Of a DNA stretch of 30,332 bases, positions 7,030-18,788 are shown piece after piece. This stretch comes from a virus. The stretch is taken from the IMG/VR virus record IMGVR_UViG_3300042894_000117, positions 1 through 30,332 of that record, one strand, 5' to 3'. The notes beneath the pieces were generated by a model that was not told where the DNA came from, searched no databases, and saw nothing but the letters and a program-made list of their open reading frames with translations. The translations under genes and the position numbers were made by a program. The stretch's first letter is position 1; each line of letters opens with the position of its first letter.

Positions 7030-7289
7030 CGGTCAGCCTTTGTGCTGAGCATGTCACGAATTTTATCAAGACGTTCAAACACTTGGTTGAGCGTCAAATT
7101 GAATTCTTCGCGCGTTATATAGCGGCCGGCAACCAGCACTTCAATCTGGCCAACTTTTTCCGCCAACTCTTTGTCGGCCTCTTGGAGATCCTTCACAGCC
7201 GCCCAAACCGTATTAAGCGTCCAGCCGCCCAGCACGCCGATCACGCCAATGGCTACATCAAAAAGAACTTGGTATTCGACCATAATCAT
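7026..7289 (-). CDS. Membrane-anchored coiled-coil protein, lysis-associated, 87 aa
   Basis: The N-terminus has one hydrophobic segment (FDVAIGVIGVLGGWTLNTVW, about residues 10-29). A coiled-coil-like region follows (KDLQEADKELAEKVGQIEVL), then a hydrophilic helical end (FERLDKIRDMLSTKADR). This one-span plus coiled-coil design is common directly upstream of phage endolysins. Such proteins have been annotated as holin-like or XhlA-like, and the topology also fits an inner-membrane spanin. The start is either ATG 7289 (overlapping the previous stop as ATGA) or ATG 7283. Family and exact role are inferred from topology and location. Confidence 0.78.
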   Translation of the reverse strand: MIMVEYQVLFDVAIGVIGVLGGWTLNTVWAAVKDLQEADKELAEKVGQIEVLVAGRYITREEFNLTLNQVFERLDKIRDMLSTKADR

Positions 7290-9922
7290 CTCGCCATAGC
7301 GTTGCGGTTTTCGGGTGACATATTGTTTTGCATAGCAATACCGCCGGTTATAGCTGTGCGGCTTAACGTGCGACGGCGCGATTCAGGCGCAGGTGTCGCA
7401 GCTTTAGCCCGGCGCGTTATCTCACGCTCAATAAGATCAGCGGCCTTTTCAGGATTACGGATTAACGCGTCCGCCAGCACGGCCGTGGTTTTGCGGTTTA
7501 TATATTTACCCGCAAAATCAAGTATCTTTTCCATGATCGACAAACGGCTGTCGATAAAATCAGGTTTAAGCGCCTTGGCCGTTTTAATGTCTTCCGTTCC
7601 AATTTCACCAATCTTTTGCGCCGGGCGCAGACCGGACATTTCTTCCGCCGCTTTAACGCGCTGAAGTTCACGCGCCACCATATTGAAATCGGTCATTATT
7701 TCCGGCGGCACATTAGACAGATCAACGTCTAATTGAACCGTAGGCTTAACCGCGCGCTTTTCAACGTCAAGCAGCGCTTGCTGATTCTTGGCCAAGTTCT
7801 GAAGACGATCAAAACCGGACTTATCCAGCACCATGCGAATAGTGCCTTTGTTCTTATCCAAATAGTTCAATGCTTTATCGGGCGAACGCGTATTAATCTC
7901 GCGGATCGCACGATCCGTAATTTCTTTAGTAAGCGCCGCGCGTCCGGCTGGCGAAAGCCGGCGTACGCCAACATCCATAGCGGCCGGATTTTTCAGTAGT
8001 GCGTCAGCATATTCCGCGCCTGTGCGCAGAGCTTCGCCACGATCCGTGCGGAAGAACGATGCGTCGCGCTCAAGTTCGCGTCGACCTTCAAGAAACGTCT
8101 GAGCCTCACGACGAACAGGATCAAGAATCTGTTCGGCGTCTATACCCATAAGGTCAAACTTAGACTGATTATCCGCGATAAACGAAGTTATCTTATCTGG
8201 ATCAACAGCATGTGTGATGGGATCAACGGCCTTGACCCGCGCCATGTCCTGAATACCAGCTTCCATAGCCCGACGCGCCACGGCGTCATTTCCAAATGTC
8301 GTCGCAAACTGCGCGGCAGCGTCTTCGTCGGCTAAAAATCGGCCGACAGTTTTGCTAGACAGAATGCCGGACTGGTTCTTTTTGGTCGTGCGAAGAATAT
8401 CCGACACAACGCCGGTCTTAAACCGAGGAACAAACTCGCTACGGTAAAGATTAAGCGCGTTAGAATATTGAAGCTGCGCCCGCATTGGTAAGTCACTGGC
8501 GCGGACAGCCTCGTCGATAGAATTATGGAGATCCATAAGATCGCCCAATGGACGACCCGCCGATTGCGCCGCCGCGATGTCTTTGTTTACAGACTTACGG
8601 ACGCGGTCAAGCTGGCGCAATGTCGCGCCATTTTGCAATTCTCTAAGATCGGCAACAGTGCGATTGGCCACGCCAAGTGGCACATCCGCCAGCCGCGCGC
8701 CAATAATACGTTCGGCGTCAGCGATGACATTATCTACCGGAATGCGTTGGTTACCGGCTGACCGAAAAGCGGCCTCGTATGCCGGCGATATTCTTTCTTC
8801 GCGGAATGCGTCGCGGATCTGCTGAGTACGCGCTGCCACAGCTTCGCCAGAGGTAAGCGGATTAGTCGCTGGAATCTGAGCGCCAGTCTGGCTCAGTCCT
8901 TGCTGAATACGTTGTTCACCCGCCGCTATAGACTGAGTGATGTCGTTGCGAATGCGAGAGACAGACGCCGCTTCTTGCGGCGACATCGCTTGGCCACGCT
9001 GAAGAATATCTTGGTCAATAGCATGAAGTTGTTGCTGAAGCGCCGAAAGGCGGCGCTGTTCAGTCAAGATTGATTCACGCCCTATCGCCGTTTCGCCGGT
9101 CATAAGATCGGCCTGAAGCGTGGCAAGCCCAGGCTCGAATTGTCTAGCTTCAGCCAGCCTTTGTGCCGCCGGCACCTCGCCTATAATACTGAGCGGTTCT
9201 CGACGCATAGCTTGCGCCGCTGCTGCGGGATCAAACGCAGTCTCATATAGCTTTGATCCTGCCGCGCGTTCAGCGCCAGCCTGAGAAACAATGGGCGACA
9301 CAAAGCGCTCATACCCGCCGGTGACGCCGCGCGCCGCCATTTCAGGAACCGCAAGCGGATTAGTAGCCTGGGAAATACGGGCGAGCATATTGCCGGGACG
9401 CGCTAAAGCGCCGATACCGCCCGTAAGCGCGGAGACACCCGCCATCGTGCCAAGCGGATCAGTTCTGAACGACTCTTTTATTCTGCCGGCTGTTTTTAGC
9501 GGACTTACGACCGCGCCCATAATCTCTTTATGAACAGCCTGCGGAATGCCTTGGATAGCTTCGCCGGCAGCAGCGCGGCCTTCTGGCGTCGCTAAGCCGA
9601 TAAGACCTTGCGCAATGTCATATCCTCTAGCGCCCATGCCGATGGCGCTTTCAGGTATATTCTCAATCGTTTCGCCAAGATAGCCAAGCGTTTTGCCGGT
9701 TGCGGTTTCACCAAACCCGCCCTTAGGAAGCCGCCCTATTCTTGTGCCGCCGACTCCTTCAGGCGAGCTTAAAAACCCAACTTCGCCAGTGACTTCGGGC
9801 TGTTTAGCTTCAAGCGAACTGACATCATAACCGTTAGCCTTCAGCTTAGTTAAAAGCTGCGCTTTAGTAGTGCCTTCCGGCACATTATTGATGACCGTTC
9901 CATCAGGAAGCCTAACGTCCAT
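7286..9922 (-). CDS. Large ejection-slot virion protein with N-terminal DG-V-I-NVPEG motif, 878 aa
   Basis: This is the largest gene of the window. It begins with DVRLPDGTVINNVPEGTTKA, a short module I associate with the start of phage internal or DNA-transfer proteins. The remainder is Ala/Arg/Gln-rich and mostly helical, with glycine-rich weakly hydrophobic stretches near residues 155-180 (GTMAGVSALTGGIGALARPG). The middle is long helical sequence, and the end has Arg-rich helices. There are no cysteines of note and no enzymatic motif I can identify. As the third large gene after the tail genes and directly before lysis, it occupies the position of P22 gp16. It shares one base with the previous stop (TAATG). 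The specific function is inferred from position. Confidence 0.72.
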   Translation of the reverse strand: MDVRLPDGTVINNVPEGTTKAQLLTKLKANGYDVSSLEAKQPEVTGEVGFLSSPEGVGGTRIGRLPKGGFGETATGKTLGYLGETIENIPESAIGMGARGYDIAQGLIGLATPEGRAAAGEAIQGIPQAVHKEIMGAVVSPLKTAGRIKESFRTDPLGTMAGVSALTGGIGALARPGNMLARISQATNPLAVPEMAARGVTGGYERFVSPIVSQAGAERAAGSKLYETAFDPAAAAQAMRREPLSIIGEVPAAQRLAEARQFEPGLATLQADLMTGETAIGRESILTEQRRLSALQQQLHAIDQDILQRGQAMSPQEAASVSRIRNDITQSIAAGEQRIQQGLSQTGAQIPATNPLTSGEAVAARTQQIRDAFREERISPAYEAAFRSAGNQRIPVDNVIADAERIIGARLADVPLGVANRTVADLRELQNGATLRQLDRVRKSVNKDIAAAQSAGRPLGDLMDLHNSIDEAVRASDLPMRAQLQYSNALNLYRSEFVPRFKTGVVSDILRTTKKNQSGILSSKTVGRFLADEDAAAQFATTFGNDAVARRAMEAGIQDMARVKAVDPITHAVDPDKITSFIADNQSKFDLMGIDAEQILDPVRREAQTFLEGRRELERDASFFRTDRGEALRTGAEYADALLKNPAAMDVGVRRLSPAGRAALTKEITDRAIREINTRSPDKALNYLDKNKGTIRMVLDKSGFDRLQNLAKNQQALLDVEKRAVKPTVQLDVDLSNVPPEIMTDFNMVARELQRVKAAEEMSGLRPAQKIGEIGTEDIKTAKALKPDFIDSRLSIMEKILDFAGKYINRKTTAVLADALIRNPEKAADLIEREITRRAKAATPAPESRRRTLSRTAITGGIAMQNNMSPENRNAMAR

Positions 9923-11262
9923 TATTTAAGACTCCCCCAATCAACAATGCCGCCTGTCGGCTTAGACTCTTCACCAGCTCTACCGCGTGTCGTCGGTTTA
10001 GCAGTTTCACCGCCGCCCAACAATTTGCGCAGGGCTTCAACAGAAGCATAGCCTTCACTAAGACCTTTTATTTTGTCTGGGTTAAGAAACGCCGCGTCAA
10101 GTTTTTCGGCTTCTTTAACCGCGTCCATCTGGGTAATACCCATTTCAAGACCTTTACGGAGCTGGGCCTTGAGAACCGCCGACGTGGTGCGGAGCGCCGC
10201 AAGCTGCGCATTAACCTCGCTGTCGCTAAGACCGCCAAGCGCCTGACCTGTCGGGCTTTTACGAAACGCGGCTTTCCAATTCGCCGCAGTAGACGCGCCA
10301 GCCTGCGGAATACCGCCGGCTTCTGCCAAAGCACCAAGTCCCGTGCTGACCGTGTCAAGTGTATCGCGCAGATCCATACGCGCGCCAGCCGTCTCGCGCG
10401 CCGGGCCAGGCGGCAACTGCTGAAGTGTCGCTTGTTTGCGAAGCGCCCTAGCGACAATCGGGTCAACGGGTGCGTTAACGTCGGCGGCAATAGCAGGCAT
10501 GCGACCTTGCTGCGCCAATACATTCATCCCCGGCTGATTCGTCACCATTGCGTTTGGCGCGCGGTACTCTGGCTCAACAGCAATAGCTGGTTCGCCCGGA
10601 CGGCCAGTCGGCGTCACAATCGTTTCGCCGGCTTTTACGCCAGAAATAGGTTTGCGGGCCTGTAAAATTTCTTCCGGCGTCGACAAGAACGCTTCAATGT
10701 CTTGCATTTCCGGCCGCGCGCCAAGACGCTTTTGCACACTAGCAGGAAGATCCGGGTAAACTTGAGCATACCGCGCCGCAAAAGTTTCCGGGTCACGGGC
10801 CATAAACGCCGGCGCAACAAGACGCTGTGCGGCTTTAATATCTTCGCCGGTTGCCGCCGCCGTTTCTTTACGGCCTTTAGCCATAATTTCAGGCGTCTCT
10901 AACTGTTGTTTTTGCCGAGCGAGGCCCAACATCCCGGTATGATAACCGGCCGCCGCGCGTTGCGCCTCTTCGGTGGCTCTTTGCGCTGCGCCCTGTCTTA
11001 TGACATTTTGAACCTGCATGGCAGTTTCGGGGTCATACTGCCAAGTTTGCTGCGCAAAACGCGGGTCTTCGAAATTAGGAGATATACCGCGAAGCTGCTG
11101 CATAGCTTGCAACTTACGCGCGTATTCAGCCATTTGCATTTCTGCGAGCGCATTTTGACGCTGGCGATAATCCATCGTCTGCATCTGCGCGAACATATTC
11201 ATGGGGTCGAAGCCGCCGCCATACTGCGGGACTTGAGCGGCGATGTCATAACGAACGGGCAT
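9922..11262 (-). CDS. Ejection-slot virion protein, Gln/Ala-rich helical, 446 aa
   Basis: The ATG at 11262 has GGGAGC upstream and starts 2 nt after the previous stop. The N-terminus (MPVRYDIAAQVPQYGGGFDP) leads into a Met/Gln-rich helical stretch (MNMFAQMQTMDYRQRQNALA) and long helices with many Gln, Ala and Arg residues. A proline-rich, less ordered centre lies around residues 200-280. A further helical segment ends near GGGETAKPTTRGRAG. The composition and position match the set of proteins injected by P22-like phages (gp7, gp20, gp16). No motif gives a more precise role. It could alternatively be an internal core protein. Confidence 0.7.
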   Translation of the reverse strand: MPVRYDIAAQVPQYGGGFDPMNMFAQMQTMDYRQRQNALAEMQMAEYARKLQAMQQLRGISPNFEDPRFAQQTWQYDPETAMQVQNVIRQGAAQRATEEAQRAAAGYHTGMLGLARQKQQLETPEIMAKGRKETAAATGEDIKAAQRLVAPAFMARDPETFAARYAQVYPDLPASVQKRLGARPEMQDIEAFLSTPEEILQARKPISGVKAGETIVTPTGRPGEPAIAVEPEYRAPNAMVTNQPGMNVLAQQGRMPAIAADVNAPVDPIVARALRKQATLQQLPPGPARETAGARMDLRDTLDTVSTGLGALAEAGGIPQAGASTAANWKAAFRKSPTGQALGGLSDSEVNAQLAALRTTSAVLKAQLRKGLEMGITQMDAVKEAEKLDAAFLNPDKIKGLSEGYASVEALRKLLGGGETAKPTTRGRAGEESKPTGGIVDWGSLK

Positions 11263-11264
11263 TA

Positions 11265-13097
11265 TCAGCTCCCGAAGATAGAATTAAGAACGCCGCCGCT
11301 TCTATAAATGCCGGGCAACTGACTTGCGCCGGCATATTGCGTGCCCTGCGGCGCAAACTGATTCATCATGCTATACGCCATGTAGTTCTGCATAGGCGAC
11401 TGGAGCGCCTGACCAAGAGCAGTCGCGCCGCCCATGTAGCCGGACGCACGCGCCTGCGCGGCGTTCTCCAATCCAGTGCCAAGCGCCTGCCCGGTGCCAA
11501 GCGAAATGTTGGCGAGCTGCGGCGCGGTGCCCGTGTAGATATTCGCCAGATTGGTGCCAGTGCCCGAATAGACATTGGCGATGTTCTGTCCAGTGCCCAG
11601 CACGTTAGCCGCCAGATTGGTGCCTTGCTGCGCCTGAAGGTTCGCAAGGTTCTGACCTGTCGCGGCCTGAATATTGCTGACGTTCTGGCCGGTCGTGCCG
11701 TAGATGTTAGCCAAGTTTGGCGCGAGCGCGCCGTAAACATTGGCGACATTCTGGCCCTGCGCGCCGGCGATGTTCGCCAAATTCTGCGAACCGGCTCCGT
11801 AAATGTTAGCCAAGTTCTGCGCGCCCGTGCCGTAGATATTGGCGAGATTAGCGCCAGTCGTTCCCTGCACGCCGGCGACGTTCTGCCCGGCCGCGCCGTA
11901 GATATTGGCGAGGTTCTGGGCTTCCGTTCCGTAAATATTAGCAAGATTAGCGCCCGTCTGAGCGCCGAGCCCGGCCCGCGAAGCCGCGCCGGTTTGCATC
12001 AGACCCGCCGCGCCAGTTCCATAATTGCCGGCTGCTTGCGACATAACATTGGCCGCGCCTTGACCAGATCCAGCAAGCCCCTGAAGCCCTGCCGCAACCG
12101 CCTGACGATTAGCCATGAAACGATTATATGCGTTGGCATATTCTTGACTGCCAGCCTCTTGGCCGTAGCGCGTCGCAGCCTTCAGCGCTGCGCCAGACCC
12201 GCGCATACCGGACGCACCTGACGCCGCCTGCATGGCTTGCTGCCCTTGCGCTAAACGAAACGCATAGCCAGGATCCATCTGAAGCTGGTCAAGTGTTGGC
12301 TGCTGCGTAAACGATCCGTAACCCGGTGCGCTAGTGTCGCCGCCGACGCCATACAGCGCGGCCATAGTATTCTGCGCGGCCGTTCCAGTGTTGTAATACG
12401 GAAGTTGATAGCCGGTCTGAGCGCCATACGCGCCACCAAGCGCGCCAAGGCCGCCCAGTTCAGCCGTTGTATATTCGCCCAGCCCGCGAGCTTCAGCGCC
12501 CGTGAGAGCGCCGGTAGCCTGCCCCGCGCCCTGTTGAATAGCTCTCGCGCCAGCGCCGGCCGAGCCGTAAAGCGCCGCAAGCTGCTGCTGTTGGGCGTTT
12601 GTAAGAGCGCCGACGCCCTGACCCATGCCGCGCTGGATAGCGCCGCCGCTCTGCATCATGCCGCGCTGAATAGCCTGCGCGCCCTGCTGAGCGCCGCCTG
12701 TCAGCGCGCCGATCTGACCGCCTGCGCCGCCGTAAAGCGCCTGCTGCTGAGCCGCCTGCGCTTGAATCAGCGGGTCAATAGAAGCCTGACGGGCCGCCTG
12801 AAGTTCCGCAGAAGCGGCGGTCGTGCCGCCACGAAGAAGATCTTGCGCCTGCTGCGATGATGTGCGAAGCGACTCAAGCGTCGGCCCTTGCGCGCCCGTA
12901 ATCGCCTGCGCCGCCTGACCCTGACCGCGAAGAATGTCTTGCCGCGCCTGTTCGGCTTGCTGCGCCTGAATAATAGCCGACATCATGGCGGCTTGAGACT
13001 GTGCCTGAGAGGCCTGGCCGGAAGCGCGGGAGCCGAGGAACGCCGAGCCAAGACCCGTCGCCGTGCTACCCAAAAGGGCCATTGTAAACGGATCCAT
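11265..13097 (-). CDS. Ejection-slot/tail protein with 11-residue repeat array, 610 aa
   Basis: The N-terminus has a glycine/alanine hydrophobic segment (MALLGSTATGLGSAFLGSRA) and then a Gln/Ala-rich helical region. Residues about 128-228 contain loose Gly-Ala-Ile-Gln repeats. Residues 275-330 (DPGYAFRLAQGQQAMQAA, GSGAALKAATRYGQ, SQEYANAYNRFMANRQ) form a block that I recognise from many phage virion proteins of this location. Residues about 379-535 hold around 14 consecutive 11-residue units of the type GxxxQNLANIY. The end is less repetitive. It is the first of three large proteins between the fibres and lysis. Ejection protein is the best inference; a tail-associated structural protein is the alternative. 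Confidence 0.75.
   Translation of the reverse strand: MDPFTMALLGSTATGLGSAFLGSRASGQASQAQSQAAMMSAIIQAQQAEQARQDILRGQGQAAQAITGAQGPTLESLRTSSQQAQDLLRGGTTAASAELQAARQASIDPLIQAQAAQQQALYGGAGGQIGALTGGAQQGAQAIQRGMMQSGGAIQRGMGQGVGALTNAQQQQLAALYGSAGAGARAIQQGAGQATGALTGAEARGLGEYTTAELGGLGALGGAYGAQTGYQLPYYNTGTAAQNTMAALYGVGGDTSAPGYGSFTQQPTLDQLQMDPGYAFRLAQGQQAMQAASGASGMRGSGAALKAATRYGQEAGSQEYANAYNRFMANRQAVAAGLQGLAGSGQGAANVMSQAAGNYGTGAAGLMQTGAASRAGLGAQTGANLANIYGTEAQNLANIYGAAGQNVAGVQGTTGANLANIYGTGAQNLANIYGAGSQNLANIAGAQGQNVANVYGALAPNLANIYGTTGQNVSNIQAATGQNLANLQAQQGTNLAANVLGTGQNIANVYSGTGTNLANIYTGTAPQLANISLGTGQALGTGLENAAQARASGYMGGATALGQALQSPMQNYMAYSMMNQFAPQGTQYAGASQLPGIYRSGGVLNSIFGS
11490..11965 (-). repeat. Tandem 33-bp (11-aa) coding repeats, about 14 units
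   Basis: Successive units read GTEAQNLANIY, GAAGQNVAGVQ, GTTGANLANIY, GTGAQNLANIY, GAGSQNLANIA, GAQGQNVANVY, GALAPNLANIY, GTTGQNVSNIQ and further divergent copies. The Asn-Leu-Ala-Asn-Ile-Tyr core is written with several synonymous codon choices, so the DNA copies differ more than the protein does. One unit near AQQGTNLAANVL has an extra residue. Confidence 0.85.
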
Positions 13098-13143: not shown

Positions 13144-13764
13144 TTATGCTGTCCATGAAACAGACGCGGTGCCGGCCGCGCCAGTTGCGCCCGTGCCGGC
13201 GTATCCGACAAACACATACACCGACCCATTCCAGTTATAGATCGGGCCGCCCTGACCCCCCGCGCCGCCTGCGCCTAACGTGACAGTTACTGTTCCGCCG
13301 GATGTGGGCCCGCTGCCGCCTATCGCCGGGTTAGTCAACGCGCCGGATGACGCTGTCGTGCCTGCCGCGCCAGGACCGCCGCCAGCGCCTGTAACATAGG
13401 TGCCCACCGACGAAGCAGAGCCGGAAGACCCAGCCGATCCGCTTGTAGGCGCGCCATTAAGCGGGCCACCAGAATACACGCCGTTAGCGCCCGTTGCGCC
13501 GCCCGCTCCGCCCGTAACAGTAAACGTGATCGTTCTATAGATTGGGACGGTATAGCTGCCCGCCGAAAGACTGGTAGGGCCGCCAGCCGTTACCTTCTGA
13601 GTGCTGTAAAAGTCTGACAGACTAATAGTGCCAGCCGGAAAAGCGCCGGCTGTTCCGCTCGTCGTGCCATAAAGCTGGCCCTGATAAGCGTTCATATTTT
13701 GGCCGAGCGCAAACTCAGTATTAATGTCATTAATAGAGATTGTTCCGCTTGCCGGCAAAGCCAT
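13144..13764 (-). CDS. Gly-rich virion protein, candidate receptor-binding adhesin, 206 aa
   Basis: The N-terminal part has GTISINDINTEF and AGTISLSDFYST, a short ISxxDI/ISLSDFY pattern common at the start of small phage tail-tip proteins. After YTVPIYRTITFTVTGGAGGA (71-90) come about 100 residues dominated by Gly, Ala, Ser and Thr, including TGAGGGPGAAG and LGAGGAGGQGG. These resemble glycine-rich phage adhesin domains, which can form polyglycine-type packing with variable loops. The start shares one base with the stop of the S74 fibre gene (TGATG), so the two are coupled and probably work together. The adhesin role is inferred from composition and location. Confidence 0.72.
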   Translation of the reverse strand: MALPASGTISINDINTEFALGQNMNAYQGQLYGTTSGTAGAFPAGTISLSDFYSTQKVTAGGPTSLSAGSYTVPIYRTITFTVTGGAGGATGANGVYSGGPLNGAPTSGSAGSSGSASSVGTYVTGAGGGPGAAGTTASSGALTNPAIGGSGPTSGGTVTVTLGAGGAGGQGGPIYNWNGSVYVFVGYAGTGATGAAGTASVSWTA

Positions 13765-15761
13765 CAGCGAGACTCCACTTTAGCTGACAATTCTTTGATA
13801 GCTTCGATCAGAACGCCGATGACATTACCATAAGCGACTGAAAGCGCATCGTCATTCTGTTTAACGACCTGCGGCAACACCGCTTGCATTTCCTGCGCGA
13901 TAACGCCAACGCCGGCCTCGCCGCTGTCAATGCGGTCGTAATAAACGCCGCGCATCTTATTGACCAACTCAAGAGCGTTCGTGATCGTGGTCACGTTTTT
14001 CTTGAGTCGCGCATCAGAATAGGCCGTTACGTTAGAGGCAGCGGTAAGATTGCCGCTCGTATCCCAATATACCTTCGCGTTGCCGCCTGAATCTTTCCAG
14101 CCTATTTGCGTGGCGTTGCCATAGAAATAACCGCCGGACGATCCGACCGTAATGGTGCGTTCAGTCGTGCTGCTGATAATCGAAAGATTGCCGGTCAGCG
14201 ACGTTGCGCCGGTGACGCTCAAAGTGCTGGAAACGCCAAACGTGCCCGTCACGGAGCTATTGCCCGTGATCGTAGCACCGCCAGCCGAAACGGTTAGGCC
14301 ATTAGACGCCGTAAGCGTGCTACTGGCCGTCAAGGTTCCGGTAACGGAACTGTTGCCCGTAATCGTCGCGCCGCCGGCCGATACGGTCAACGTGCTACTG
14401 ACGCCAAGCGTTCCGGTAATGGAGCTGTTGCCCGTGATCGTAGCGCCGCCAGCCGAGACGGTAAGACCGCCAGCGGTAACGGTAGCGCCGCCAGCCGAGA
14501 CGGTCAGACCATTAGACGCCGTAAGCGTGCTACTGACACCAAGCGTGCCCGTGACAGAACTATTGCCCGTAATAGCCGCGCCGCCAGCCGAGACGGTCAG
14601 ACCGCCAGCGGTAACGGTAGCGCCGCCAGCCGAGACAGTCAGACCATTAGAAGCGGTCAATGTGCTGCTAACGCCGAGCGTGCCAGTAATCGAGCTGTTA
14701 CCCGTGACAGTAGCGCCGCCAGCCGAGACGGTCAGACCGCCCGTGGTTACAGTAAGCGCGTTGCTAACGCCAAGCGTGCCCGTGACTGTGCTGTTGCCCG
14801 TAATGGCCGCGCCGCCACCAGAAACCGTCAGGCCGCCCGTGGTTACGGTCAGACCGTTAGAAGCTGTGAGCGTGCTGCTAACGCCCAACGTGCCCGTGAT
14901 CGAGCTGTTGCCCGTAATAGCCGCACCGCCAGCCGAGACGGTGAGCGCGCCGGTTGAGCCAAACGTGCCCGTGACCGTGCTATTACCGGTGATCGTAGCG
15001 CCGCCAGCCGATACGACTAAGCCGCCAGAAGAAACTGTAAGCGTGCTGCTTACACCCAGCGTGCCCGTGACCGTGCTGTTGCCGGTGATAGCAATACCGC
15101 CAGAGAACGTGACCGCGCCAGAGAAAGTTGCAGCGCCAGCGCCCGAGATCGTAAGGCGGTTGCCGCCGTTCGTTCTGACGATAAAGTTGCGGTTGTCGCG
15201 GACATCGAACGTCGAGTTAGATGCGTCCGCCGAGATAACCGTGCGCGGCGTGCCGTTAGCAGAGAACTGGATCTTACCGGCATTGTCAATGTCGAGCGCT
15301 TCCGCCGGAGCGACAGTGCCAAGACCGACAAGACCAGCCGAATTAATGACAAACGGCGTCAGATCAGGGTCGACGCTGTCCTGCACGCGCATAACGTCGC
15401 CGGTGCCGGTCTGTGTAACTTTGAGCGCCGGGCCAGACGAGTCAGTCGAGATCGTGACGTTACCCGTCAGAACTGGCGACACCGCCGTTGTCGGCGCGGA
15501 AATATAATCGACCGTCCATTGTTCAACGTCATTGGAATCGGTCAGTTTGAACTTATAGGTCGCTTCGCCAAGCCAAATATCGGCCTCGCCGCGAGAGTCT
15601 AAGATAATCGGGTTAGTATTAGGTGTAGCGCCGGTCGAGTCTGTATAAGTAACCTGCGGACTGGTCGTGCCGGCCGCGTAAGTATAGACCTTACCGCCAA
15701 CCAACGGAATGCCGTCAGCTCCGATAAACTGCGTTTTAGGGATTGGAGTGATAACGGCCAT
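13764..15761 (-). CDS. Tail fibre with repeat shaft and C-terminal S74 intramolecular chaperone, 665 aa
   Basis: Residues 1-90 (PIPKTQFIGADGIPLVGGKV, then GEADIWLGEATYKFKLTD) form an N-terminal virion-attachment type domain. Residues 144-210 are a beta-rich fibre module. Residues about 215-520 are a shaft of repeats such as GLTVSAGGATITGNSS and VTGTLGVSSTLTASN. Residues about 580-665 are a Peptidase_S74 chaperone: YSDARLKKNVTTI has the Ser-Asp cleavage site and Lys, followed by GVIAQEMQAVLPQVV and GVLIEAIKEL. Such domains trimerise the fibre and then cut themselves off. The ATG follows directly on the stop of the jelly-roll gene, with AGGTGG as RBS. It is probably a host-recognition fibre. 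Confidence 0.9.
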   Translation of the reverse strand: MAVITPIPKTQFIGADGIPLVGGKVYTYAAGTTSPQVTYTDSTGATPNTNPIILDSRGEADIWLGEATYKFKLTDSNDVEQWTVDYISAPTTAVSPVLTGNVTISTDSSGPALKVTQTGTGDVMRVQDSVDPDLTPFVINSAGLVGLGTVAPAEALDIDNAGKIQFSANGTPRTVISADASNSTFDVRDNRNFIVRTNGGNRLTISGAGAATFSGAVTFSGGIAITGNSTVTGTLGVSSTLTVSSGGLVVSAGGATITGNSTVTGTFGSTGALTVSAGGAAITGNSSITGTLGVSSTLTASNGLTVTTGGLTVSGGGAAITGNSTVTGTLGVSNALTVTTGGLTVSAGGATVTGNSSITGTLGVSSTLTASNGLTVSAGGATVTAGGLTVSAGGAAITGNSSVTGTLGVSSTLTASNGLTVSAGGATVTAGGLTVSAGGATITGNSSITGTLGVSSTLTVSAGGATITGNSSVTGTLTASSTLTASNGLTVSAGGATITGNSSVTGTFGVSSTLSVTGATSLTGNLSIISSTTERTITVGSSGGYFYGNATQIGWKDSGGNAKVYWDTSGNLTAASNVTAYSDARLKKNVTTITNALELVNKMRGVYYDRIDSGEAGVGVIAQEMQAVLPQVVKQNDDALSVAYGNVIGVLIEAIKELSAKVESR
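14204..15119 (-). repeat. Tandem repeats in the fibre shaft
   Basis: The coding DNA for shaft residues 215-520 is built of near-identical blocks coding for TVSAGGAxITGNSSxTGTLGVSSTLTASNGL. The clearest is a head-to-tail duplication of about 135 bp (45 codons, residues 373-417 and 418-462). The copies are strongly alike at the nucleotide level too, pointing to recent expansion by slippage or recombination. Confidence 0.85.
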
Positions 15762-16358
15762 TTATCCACCTACGATACTGGTAACGGTTAAAATAACCGA
15801 AGGAATGGCGGGAACATGCCCCGATGCAGTAGCAGCTAATATCGAGACGTTCGTATTCGTCGTTTCCCAATATAGCTCAAAATAATCGCCTGCGGTTAGA
15901 CTTACCACAAAATTCCATGCCGCAACATAAGCGTTGCTAGACCCTGACAAGGTAATCTTGGTAGCTGAATCCGGCACATTTGTGCCGTTCACACTAAGCC
16001 ATATGTAAACATCTTTAGAGCTAGCGTTAGCGCTAATAAATTGCGCCGAAAACTGTATGTTATAAGTGCCTGTATTGTCTACATAGACGCGCGAATTTGG
16101 CGTGCCTACATACACTCCATATTCTAGAGGGCCGGCGTTAATTTTAGTTGCAACGCTATTTAATTTCATGGCGTAGGCGGTATTAGCCGCCGCCGCAGTT
16201 TGCGTCGTCGTGTCGTAATACGACCCGTATCGACGGCCGTTTTCGACGGAAACATAGATATTATAAAACCAGCGATACCATTCGCGGGTCACATAGTTTG
16301 TTATTTTGTCCCAGATCGGAACACGCGCTGCCGGGATAAGTGTATTATTATCAGGCAT
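15762..16358 (-). CDS. Virion protein with C1q/TNF-like jelly-roll C-terminus, 198 aa
   Basis: The N-terminal NTLIPAARVPIWDKITNYVT and REWYRWFYNIY is a short anchoring motif I associate with small phage fibre or tail proteins. The C-terminal two thirds (TQTAAAANTAYAM; then TGTYNIQFSAQF, DVYIWLSVNGTNVPDS, AAWNFVVSLTAGDYFELYW) is the strand pattern of a trimeric C1q/TNF-type jelly roll. It directly follows the gp10-like gene with an 8-nt overlap, the slot of the tail needle (gp26) in P22. It lacks the long coiled coil of the needle. It is either a knob-like tail-tip protein or a short fibre. The fold call is by pattern only. Confidence 0.75.
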   Translation of the reverse strand: MPDNNTLIPAARVPIWDKITNYVTREWYRWFYNIYVSVENGRRYGSYYDTTTQTAAAANTAYAMKLNSVATKINAGPLEYGVYVGTPNSRVYVDNTGTYNIQFSAQFISANASSKDVYIWLSVNGTNVPDSATKITLSGSSNAYVAAWNFVVSLTAGDYFELYWETTNTNVSILAATASGHVPAIPSVILTVTSIVGG

Positions 16359-18078
16359 TTGTGCGGTCCATTATGAGTTCAGCGCCCATAATGGCGATCT
16401 TAACCGGATCAGTGCCCGATATTTCATATACGCGGTCGCGGATTTTCATGGTCATGCCAAGCCGCCGCCAGATCGTGCGGTAGCCGAACTGGCCAATACG
16501 GCCCATCGACTTCCAATGCTCGTTAGACCAAGTATGGCCGCCATCATCTGACCAACGGAGCATAACTTGCGGGACGACGCCAGGGCGCAACGCAGGCGCT
16601 TGAGCGATTATATACTCGCCGTTTTCCGTCAAAAGTCGCTCGCTGGCTTCGGTCGTAATGTAATCACCTTCTAGGTAATCGTAATCGTCGCCAACAAGCC
16701 CAACGCCTGTTTCACAATCAAGCTGAAGGCTATGTTGCGTCGTGCGTTTTAAATCATTTTGGCCAGTCGGCAATGCGCGCCATGAGCGCAGCCATTTTTG
16801 AATCGAGCCGGCTTCCGTATAGACCGTAGAATCATAAGCAAAAAGCCCGCCGCCAACATAATCGCCAATGACAATCTCATTGTTATAGTTCATCTGGCAG
16901 TTGCCGCGATGACGCGTGAACTGGTTATTTTCCCAGCCAGCGCGCTCATGCCAAACGCCAGTCGACACGTCATAAACCCATGTCGTATCAGCGGTTGGAA
17001 AATTCAGCACATAGAAGCTGTGGCCATCTTGCTGATAGGTATAGGCCACGGCGTCAGCAAGCGTCGAATATTGTTGGATCTGCCATTCGACAGCGTGCGT
17101 CGATATGCGCTCTCCAGAGTAGCCTTTGGAGCGATAAACGATACCATTACCGCGCGCATCGCGGCCAAGCCAAAACAGGCCATTGTCCAGTTTGGCGACT
17201 GAATAGGCGGCGAGACAGCCAATTTCGTTAAACGCGCCTTGGATACGCGCAAGAGGAAAATCAGGCGTGCCGGCGTCATACCAGACTTCGACCGTGTTAA
17301 CGCCAAACAACCAGATTTCACGATGGTCGACGATCAGCGTGACAAGATTGTCCGGCGAGCCTTCCGCGCTGGCAAAATCCAGCGCGTCAATATTTAAGCC
17401 ATTGTAAGATTCCGTGACCCAAAAACGCTGACTATTAGGCTCATTAAAGACAAAATAGCCGTCAATAAAACCAACGCCGACAGCGCCTGGAAAGTCAGGA
17501 TCGGTAATCTCACTGAACAACGGCGAGAACGTCAGATCGACCGTCGCCGTCGCCGTTGCGTTAGCCGACAGTTCAAACGTTGTGGCGTCCGTTATGCTAA
17601 GAACCGTTGTACCGCTGGGTATGCCAGAGCCCGTGACGGGAAGCCCGACCCAAATCAGCGACGTGTCAGCGGTCGTGACCGTGGCGTCGCCGTTCGTTGT
17701 ACCGCAGCTCAGCGTAACATCAGTATTATTGTAGATGTAGCCGTTAGCGCCGGCGGCTATGAATAGCTGCGTGCCGTTGTCGACCATGTTGACCGGGCCA
17801 GCGCCGGCGACAGTGCCAAGCTCGTGATACGACCAGTCCGTATCGACGCGGTATAGTTTCGTGCCGGCGACCGCATAGCCATAGTCGCCATACTGCCAAA
17901 GACCGCGCACGGGGCCAGTCGGGAACACGGCGAGCTGACGCAAACCAGGCGCACGCTGAAGCCATGCGGCCTCTTTGCCGCCTTCTGGCACGATCTCAGG
18001 AAAGATATTGACCATGCGGCTGTCAGCCGCATTTGGGCTACGCAAGACATAAGACGAGCCAAGGATCGGCGTCTTCAT
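16351..18078 (-). CDS. P22 gp10-like packaged-DNA stabilisation / tail hub protein, 575 aa
   Basis: It begins MKTPILGSSYVLRSPNAADS and contains blades of a beta-propeller-like protein: VRGLWQYGDYGYAVAGTKLY, GYFVFNEPNSQRFWV, EIWLFGVNTVEVWYDAG, FNEIGCLAAYSVAKLDNGLF and WLGRDARGNGIVYR. These are features of the P22 gp10 family, which plugs the portal channel and carries the needle. Residues about 118-185 (starting VTLSCGTTNGDATVTTADTS) are a separate small beta domain inserted between two blades. The gene starts in TAATG with the end of the gp4-like gene. The gp4-gp10 pair is the usual order. Family assignment is firm, while fine structure is inferred. Confidence 0.85.
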   Translation of the reverse strand: MKTPILGSSYVLRSPNAADSRMVNIFPEIVPEGGKEAAWLQRAPGLRQLAVFPTGPVRGLWQYGDYGYAVAGTKLYRVDTDWSYHELGTVAGAGPVNMVDNGTQLFIAAGANGYIYNNTDVTLSCGTTNGDATVTTADTSLIWVGLPVTGSGIPSGTTVLSITDATTFELSANATATATVDLTFSPLFSEITDPDFPGAVGVGFIDGYFVFNEPNSQRFWVTESYNGLNIDALDFASAEGSPDNLVTLIVDHREIWLFGVNTVEVWYDAGTPDFPLARIQGAFNEIGCLAAYSVAKLDNGLFWLGRDARGNGIVYRSKGYSGERISTHAVEWQIQQYSTLADAVAYTYQQDGHSFYVLNFPTADTTWVYDVSTGVWHERAGWENNQFTRHRGNCQMNYNNEIVIGDYVGGGLFAYDSTVYTEAGSIQKWLRSWRALPTGQNDLKRTTQHSLQLDCETGVGLVGDDYDYLEGDYITTEASERLLTENGEYIIAQAPALRPGVVPQVMLRWSDDGGHTWSNEHWKSMGRIGQFGYRTIWRRLGMTMKIRDRVYEISGTDPVKIAIMGAELIMDRTNA

Positions 18079-18788
18079 TAGTAGTTTCCGGCGTAGATAT
18101 TATAGCGCTGACGCGTGCCGACGATGCTGTAAGGCAGCGCCATGATGTCGTCAGGATTGTTGATGCGCTTCAGATTGCGCTTGCTATACATAGCGATGCG
18201 CTGCACCTGCGCGGAAGGCTCGACGCCAAACTCCGGGGCCATTTCGCAGGCCAGATTATAGCGGAACGCCCGCAGGTAGCCCGGTGGGAACGTCAACTGT
18301 GTCGCCAGCGCGGCCGGCTGCGTCAGTTCCTCGACCGAAATGAAATGCCACTCAAGCTCGCGCAGCGGCTTGGGGTAGATAAACATATCAATGTCGGGGA
18401 ACGTATTGTTGACGAATATGACCTGCGGGTAGGTGGACGTAACAGTTTTGACGGCGATACCGTCATACTGTTGCTGGTTAATAAACTTTATGCCGTAAGA
18501 CACATTCGTCTGCGGGTCGCGGAAATAAGTCGCGTCGTCCAGCAAGACAGGTCGATTACCGACAAAATCGCCAGTCGGGCCAAGCGTCCGGTTAAGTTCG
18601 CCGGGCGGCCATAGAAATACTTGATCCTGAGTCGAAAAGACCGCCAGACGCTCCGTGTTCCACGAGTCGATCATCTGGTTCAGCGCCATCAGCGCGTCCT
18701 GCGCCGTCTCCGCTGAAGGCGTTTCGCCTTCTGCGAGGACGCCCAACAGCCTCAGCGCCCCGTTGATCTGATCGTACGCTGTCGTCAT
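18078..18788 (-). CDS. P22 gp4-like tail accessory / head completion factor, 236 aa
   Basis: The N-terminus AYDQINGALRLLGVLAEGET, followed by ALMALNQMIDSWNTERLAVF, is the helical signature of the P22 gp4 family. Members bind below the portal and begin assembly of the tail. The rest (FINQQQYDGIAVK, FPDIDMFIYPKPL, FPPGYLRAFRYNLACEMAPE, RRNLKRIN-like basic region) is consistent with phage members of similar length. It precedes the gp10-like gene and shares its stop with that start. The ATG at 18788 has a weak AAGG. The first 197 nt are also open in another frame, used by the upstream short gene. Confidence 0.87.
   Translation of the reverse strand: MTTAYDQINGALRLLGVLAEGETPSAETAQDALMALNQMIDSWNTERLAVFSTQDQVFLWPPGELNRTLGPTGDFVGNRPVLLDDATYFRDPQTNVSYGIKFINQQQYDGIAVKTVTSTYPQVIFVNNTFPDIDMFIYPKPLRELEWHFISVEELTQPAALATQLTFPPGYLRAFRYNLACEMAPEFGVEPSAQVQRIAMYSKRNLKRINNPDDIMALPYSIVGTRQRYNIYAGNY

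Follow-up and report, generated by a model that had tools for sequence, protein, structure and literature searches.

Length-matched 11-residue repeat arms in a P22 gp7-type DNA-ejection protein, a candidate for an antiparallel helical hairpin of adjustable reach

The window, a 30.3-kb virus record, carries its genes in the order known from phage P22: portal, scaffold, coat, gp4, gp10 and fibre/needle genes, followed by the slots of genes 7, 20 and 16. Two synteny markers were identified by profile matches, the head closure protein Hc3 (P22 gp10-like; 16351–18078, minus strand; phrog_578, E = 2.5e-127) and the tail accessory factor (P22 gp4-like; 18078–18788, minus strand; phrog_637, E = 2.5e-11, with PF11650 just under the cut-off). 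Downstream of the gene under study, the P22 gene 20 slot (9922–11262, minus strand; 446 aa) and gene 16 slot (7286–9922, minus strand; 878 aa) were assigned by position only, and neither product had a significant Pfam or PHROG match. The tail-fibre gene at 13764–15761 (minus strand) encodes a C-terminal S74 endosialidase chaperone domain (E = 4e-14) and also contains nested repeats of 135, 42 and 21 bp, with the array at 14316–14846.

The gene in the gene 7 slot (11265–13097, minus strand) encodes a protein of 610 aa that includes both of the arms described below. By its sequence, this protein is a P22 gp7-type DNA-ejection protein of PHROG 598 (phrog_598, 'DNA ejection', E = 3.1e-11); the match and the P22-like gene order together support the ejection-protein identity that had been read from the locus in an earlier note on this DNA. 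P22 gp7 itself matches phrog_598 at 2e-95, and shorter relatives of the window protein match it at values down to 9e-53. A direct hhalign comparison with P22 gp7 was weak (Prob 1.6%, E 0.03), and thus the link to P22 rests on the PHROG model and on synteny. Relatives are present in annotated phages, among them Rhodoferax phage P26218 and Vibrio phage VvAW1. Sequence searches of a PDB set returned no solved homologue for the window protein, the family profile or P22 gp7, and the family profile reached no ejection-protein chain in that set, though it includes T7 gp14. The 610-aa protein is probably injected ahead of the DNA.

All segments of the protein lie on the minus strand. The N-terminal leader (residues 1–24; 13026–13097) was modelled by AlphaFold2 (AF2) with a pLDDT of 42–49, the segment 8–26 falling below 50; in P22 gp7 the first 20 residues are removed by host OpdA (PMC8402733; also the P22 record). 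The leader is followed by the N-arm, a predicted long helix (residues 25–230; 12408–13025; AF2 helices 23–146 and 160–249), and by a conserved core or tip (residues 231–326; 12120–12407), which is marked by the invariant columns of an 83-sequence alignment (QxPY...DPGYxFR...SGxALKA...QEYxNAYxR) and reaches a pLDDT of up to 94. The C-arm, a second predicted long helix (residues 327–548; 11454–12119), includes an array of NLANIY repeats and ends at the distal anchor ARASGYMGGA (residues 549–558; 11424–11453), a conserved end point for C-arm length. Both arms have a hydrophobic-moment peak at 98 degrees and take part in the length lock reported below. The protein closes with a tail (residues 559–610; 11268–11423) ending in GVLNSIFGS, for which the DNA is identical in the window protein (L003) and its relative L019. 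The C-terminal 20–40 residues (...QSGGVLNSIFGS/R) are common to L003, L017, L019, L029, L048 and L074 despite their different arms, while close relatives have other tails, which suggests that the C-terminal module is swappable.

Residues 380–533 (11499–11960, minus strand) form 14 consecutive 11-residue units with the consensus xTGxNLANIYG, and the strict core [NQ][LIVM][AGS]N[ILVM] is present in 12 of them. Self-identity at lag 11 was 0.46 over residues 360–550, compared with 0.12 ± 0.02 for shuffled sequence (z = 14.5), and the peaks recur at lags 22, 33 and 44. The approximately 14 tandem 11-mers that the earlier note had placed at 11490–11965 are therefore real. Tandem Repeats Finder (TRF) detected 33-bp DNA repeats at 11697–11834 only, the best-preserved stretch, so that the array is much clearer at the protein level. 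Between units, pN/pS was 0.38/0.71 overall, and at N5, A7 and N8 of the unit pN was 0.11–0.21 against a pS of 0.69–1.38. As pN is below pS and is lowest at these three positions, it is the protein sequence that is kept, and selection on the array acts at the protein level; the same had been claimed before this between-unit comparison, which the earlier note had itself proposed, was made. DNA slippage was rejected as the origin of the array because the units differ mostly at synonymous sites and the arms are under purifying selection.

A second 11-residue array lies N-terminal of the core in the same protein (residues about 112–221; 12435–12764). This array is more degenerate than the C-terminal one (lag-11 z = 4.3 over residues 125–230), and TRF found 33-bp arrays within it at 12606–12761. 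The original description of the repeats was thus sound but incomplete, since it overlooked the N-terminal array and the locking of both arms in length. An antisense ORF of 294 codons runs across the C-terminal array (11337–12221, plus strand) and is the largest to do so on that strand. It was not taken to be a gene, given its TTG start and its position antisense to a conserved family, and probably results from the codons that the repeats use.

Homologues were gathered from viral contigs, two of the searches yielding 214 and 290 relatives, and 74 proteins of 248–770 aa could be anchored. N-arm length was counted between the start codon and the QxPY motif, and C-arm length between the last residue of the QEYxNAYxR block and the distal motif, ARASGY or AxxPTN; both were thus taken from conserved anchors outside the repeats and not by aligning the repeats. 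Over arms of about 50–337 residues, N-arm length equalled C-arm length plus a constant, with r = 0.9995 and 0.999998 in the two anchor groups. In the ARA group (n = 55; 12 length classes; N-arms of 51–230 residues) N minus C was 8, to within ±3 in 53 of 55 proteins, and in the PTN group (n = 19; 8 length classes; N-arms of 75–318 residues) it was −20 or −19 in all 19. Shuffles of the length classes matched the observed fit 0 and 6 times per 100,000 in the two groups. Closely related pairs that differed in length changed both arms by an identical number of residues in 66 of 72 cases. Of the 17 disjoint close pairs, 15 showed identical changes, the steps being 7, 11, 22, 33, 44, 66 and 77 residues, to which further, non-disjoint matched pairs add steps of 26, 88 and 110.

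Five of the six mismatched close pairs involve a single protein, L188 (IMGVR_UViG_3300020043_002332), in which the N-arm is 7 residues shorter than its C-arm predicts. Its shorter N-side is that of one subgroup and its longer C-side that of another, which suggests that L188 is either a recombinant or a chimeric contig. The sixth pair, L182 and L063, differs by 5 residues near the N-terminus. L186 was only an apparent exception to the lock: its true start is likely MDPFTIAML..., 14 residues downstream, and the arms agree when counted from there. In L210, L211 and L228, an unrelated N-terminal domain of ~300 residues is fused to a short-armed gp7-type protein, and these three were excluded from the length-lock statistics. 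Further distant relatives, which have inserts or additional domains, had no anchors or did not belong to the family; the lock is therefore claimed for the anchored set of the window protein's family. A recognisable 11-mer unit was absent from 22 of the 74 anchored proteins. The earlier note had held that homologues lacking any repeat, with function intact, would refute its reading; homologues without the NLANIY motif do exist, which bears this out in part, and P22 gp7 itself has only 229 aa. These proteins indicate that the array is a length module and not the basic functional unit.

The positions of insertions and deletions in the two arms were also matched. For an indel lying d residues from the core in the N-arm, the counterpart in the C-arm lay at d + 26 ± 8 (r = 0.93; 15 matched disjoint pairs), whereas random placement of indels gave a spread of about 50, and the observed spread was never reached in 20,000 trials. 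A parallel arrangement of the arms fitted the indels badly (r = 0.37, spread 52). Pairing of the two arms side by side is well supported by these comparisons of sequence, and since the arms are locked in length residue for residue, an antiparallel hairpin is indicated, with an implied register of i + j near 582 in the window protein. When the AF2 model was aligned to known hairpins, the aligned stretches spanned residues 165–413 (SMC) and 173–406 (chemoreceptor), with sums of 578 and 579, an agreement that is not fully independent because the model used the same alignment.

The hydrophobic moment peaked at 96–98 degrees in 11 of the 14 arms tested, and at 98.18 degrees it was well over shuffles in most arms, very short arms being noisy. 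The C-arms of the window protein (L003) and L032 had a second peak of about equal height at 131 degrees, the 11-residue harmonic. AF2 was run on the window protein and on a short relative (83 and 67 sequences, respectively), and in both models long helices flank the core and there is no strand. Confidence was moderate (mean pLDDT 68 and 65; pTM 0.34 and 0.39), with low-confidence breaks near 145–158 and 434–444 in the window model. The moment peak and the AF2 helices at 302–434 and 446–522 agree with the alpha-helical hendecad suggested in the earlier note. The beta-solenoid that it had offered as an alternative is disfavoured by the lack of strand in either model and by the alpha-type moment, and disorder of the array was rejected on the predicted helices and the same alpha-type moment. 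On a helical wheel of 126 distinct C-arm units, unit positions 6, 9 and 10 were hydrophobic, 3, 7 and 11 small, and 1, 4, 5 and 8 polar, with mostly Thr at position 2; positions 5, 6, 7 and 9 are partly fixed by the search pattern, and 1, 3, 4, 8, 10 and 11 are the informative ones.

A Foldseek search of the full window model against the PDB returned nothing significant, and against viral models only 'DNA transfer protein' relatives were recovered. The structural neighbours of the models are hairpins, including SMC arms (5xg2), the antifreeze protein Maxi (4ke2) and T7 gp14 in its infection state. The short-armed model matched T7 gp14 chain 8e4g_a with Z 8.1 and rmsd 4.1 over 127/127 residues, where a Z of about 8 may reflect the common helical-hairpin arrangement and values under 13 are not decisive for such folds.

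Arm length appears to have changed repeatedly, with at least 27 C-arm length changes by parsimony on a core-domain tree that has few columns and many unresolved forks. Several strongly supported groups in this tree combine cores bearing arms of differing type and length, which suggests that the tip has been exchanged between arms with the length match surviving. Between the window protein and L019 each of the two arms differs by 66 residues, yet the C-terminal tails are identical, as is the downstream DNA across the 1.3 kb compared; thus both arm lengths occur above the same downstream gene. Tuning of arm length to the gene 20-slot product was rejected, as the correlation was weak or absent (rho 0.30, −0.28 and 0.21; p = 0.10 for the last).

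Other architectures were observed among gp7-type relatives. Two relatives from bacterial genomes, L250 (Phenylobacterium sp. J367) and L260 (from a Gammaproteobacteria MAG), have a charged, non-hendecad tandem array directly after the core, of FESDRNNLNNNFxSDRxYGRxV-like and NRDSQMRDQDNQFRTDTF-like types, another kind of arm extension. The relative PAE2_13 of Pseudomonas phage PAE2 is annotated with an S74 intramolecular-chaperone-like C-terminal domain, and L232 and L244 have, as judged by eye, an apparent S74-like C-terminal domain, which is usual on tail fibres.

The interpretation that we favour, with moderate confidence, is that the NLANIY array is the C-terminal arm of an antiparallel helical hairpin in an ejected protein, and that such hairpins are the staves of a channel of adjustable reach. 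The N-arm, an equally long hendecad helix, would pack alongside the C-arm, placing the core (residues 231–326) at the hairpin tip and bringing the start of the N-helix and ARASGYMGGA together at the base. Each unit would present a hydrophobic face (L6, I9, Y10), a small-residue face (G3, A7, G11) and an amide or polar face (N5, N8 and positions 1 and 4). The protein would exit the virion before the DNA and, on the pattern of T7 gp14, several hairpins side by side would form the staves of a tube extending the tail, the hairpin segment leading the DNA through the outer membrane. Matched units gained or lost in both arms would alter the reach of the tube by about 1.65 nm per 11-mer; straight helices with a rise of 1.5 Å per residue would give the window protein arms of about 31 nm and L032, the longest, arms of about 44 nm. 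We infer that the hairpin forms within one chain and not between neighbours, that it assembles as a barrel with the amide face lining the lumen, and where it sits in the envelope, and the same applies to the number of subunits in the assembly and the determinant of its length. A role in bracing or lining the conduit, as the earlier note had envisaged, is plausible.

The length lock and the indel heights would be identical if the N-arm ran antiparallel to the C-arm of a neighbouring molecule in a domain-swapped ring, an arrangement that cannot be told from an intrachain hairpin at the level of sequence and that would suit proteins acting as oligomers, with about 12 gp7 per P22 virion (PMC8402733). 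We regard this as unlikely, given that ejected T7 gp14 is an intramolecular antiparallel hairpin (PMC11784390) and that the core joining the arms is short (88–96 residues) and lies at the same end of both. Equal arm lengths would likewise result if the arms were unpaired and each lay along the same external ruler, such as the portal barrel, the tail tube or a partner protein; in mature T7, helices of gp14 wrap the portal barrel (PMC11784390). A shared ruler alone, however, predicts neither the same-height indels in both arms (r = 0.93) nor the 7-residue steps in both arms (L047/L052 and L197/L193). The occurrence of a 610-aa and a 478-aa protein above 1.3 kb of identical downstream DNA makes a ruler in that product improbable, and the length of the gene 20-slot product hardly tracks the arms overall. 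We therefore give a ruler a slight chance.

An amphipathic, apolipoprotein- or synuclein-like helix lying on or in the outer membrane and opening it, which had also been proposed for the array, would accord with the 11-residue periodicity and its hydrophobic face. Known lipid-surface hendecads are charged, unlike the C-arm of the window protein, in which 1% of residues are charged and GRAVY is near 0, and lipid contact alone would not lock the arms to equal length; no specific support for lipid-surface binding was obtained. Even with the lipid pores formed by T7 gp14 (PMC8954989) and by its proposed equivalent DEV gp73 (PMC10925440) in its favour, we consider this very unlikely. Lastly, neutral expansion, in which 33-bp slippage occurs in a permissive linker and matched lengths spread as a recombination cassette around the core, seems a highly improbable explanation: more divergent inner blocks than distal arms in most pairs and the swapping of cores between arm types indicate that cassette exchange does occur, but one-arm slippage should make mismatches common where a single clear one was seen (L188), dN was well below dS in nearly all distal-arm comparisons, as expected under purifying selection, and the matched steps include 7 and 11 besides 22 and more.

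The residue-exact coupling of the arms is evolutionary evidence for an antiparallel paired rod that is independent of structure prediction, and the register of i + j near 582 in the window protein is a testable prediction of the hairpin. More tentatively, it is possible that the hairpin makes for a genetically adjustable DNA conduit, in which one gene sets the length of the tube (about 4–44 nm) to the host surface or envelope, independent of the downstream ejection genes. The matched-arm family provides a natural length series with which to ask how the reach of a phage DNA channel is determined. The family and its general role were known already; neither the length-locked, extendable double array nor any description of hendecads or of arms matched in length in proteins of the gp7/gp14 type was found in a literature search that covered few subscription journals.

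Several known systems offer comparisons. Maxi, the hyperactive type I antifreeze protein of winter flounder (4ke2), scored highest among the structural neighbours of the short-armed relative (Z 9.7). Maxi is an alanine-rich helix of 11-residue repeats folded back upon itself; unlike the window protein, it is eukaryotic, and its function is unrelated. SMC arms, also among the top structural neighbours (5xg2), resemble the window protein in being built from N- and C-terminal segments that lie far apart in the chain and need to be of equal length; natural SMC arm lengths are constrained (PMC5344682). The SMC coiled coil differs in being joined to ATPase heads and has no homology to the window protein. 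The H pilot protein of phiX174 forms an alpha-helical tube for DNA translocation, which has three hendecads and a lumen rich in amides (PMC7354561). It is a decamer of single helices, with arms unpaired within the chain and no homology shown, unlike the proposed hairpin, and serves as a working analogue, not as a relative.

T7 gp14 has been described as the counterpart of P22 gp7 (PMC8954989), and in T7 that has ejected its DNA it consists of two antiparallel helices with a short loop between them, the channel in the nozzle and outer membrane being built of six copies (PMC11784390). It is like the window protein in being a small ejection protein and in its weak structural match to the model (8e4g_a), and unlike it in its 196 aa, its short arms and the lack of detected sequence similarity; no hendecad array was reported in the T7 gp14 literature examined. 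The gp14-like proteins of 14 reference phages span 181–240 aa (PMC8954989), and a class reported as nearly constant in size thus varies threefold, by matched extension, in the present family (248–770 aa). P22 gp7, gp29 of Rhodoferax phage P26218 and gp03 of Vibrio phage VvAW1 share with the window protein the PHROG family, the gene order, the slot ahead of the other ejection genes and the probable role. These proteins have 228–246 aa (P22 gp7, 229 aa), against 610 aa in the window protein, and what is new relative to them is the pair of hendecad arms, which reach about 330 residues.
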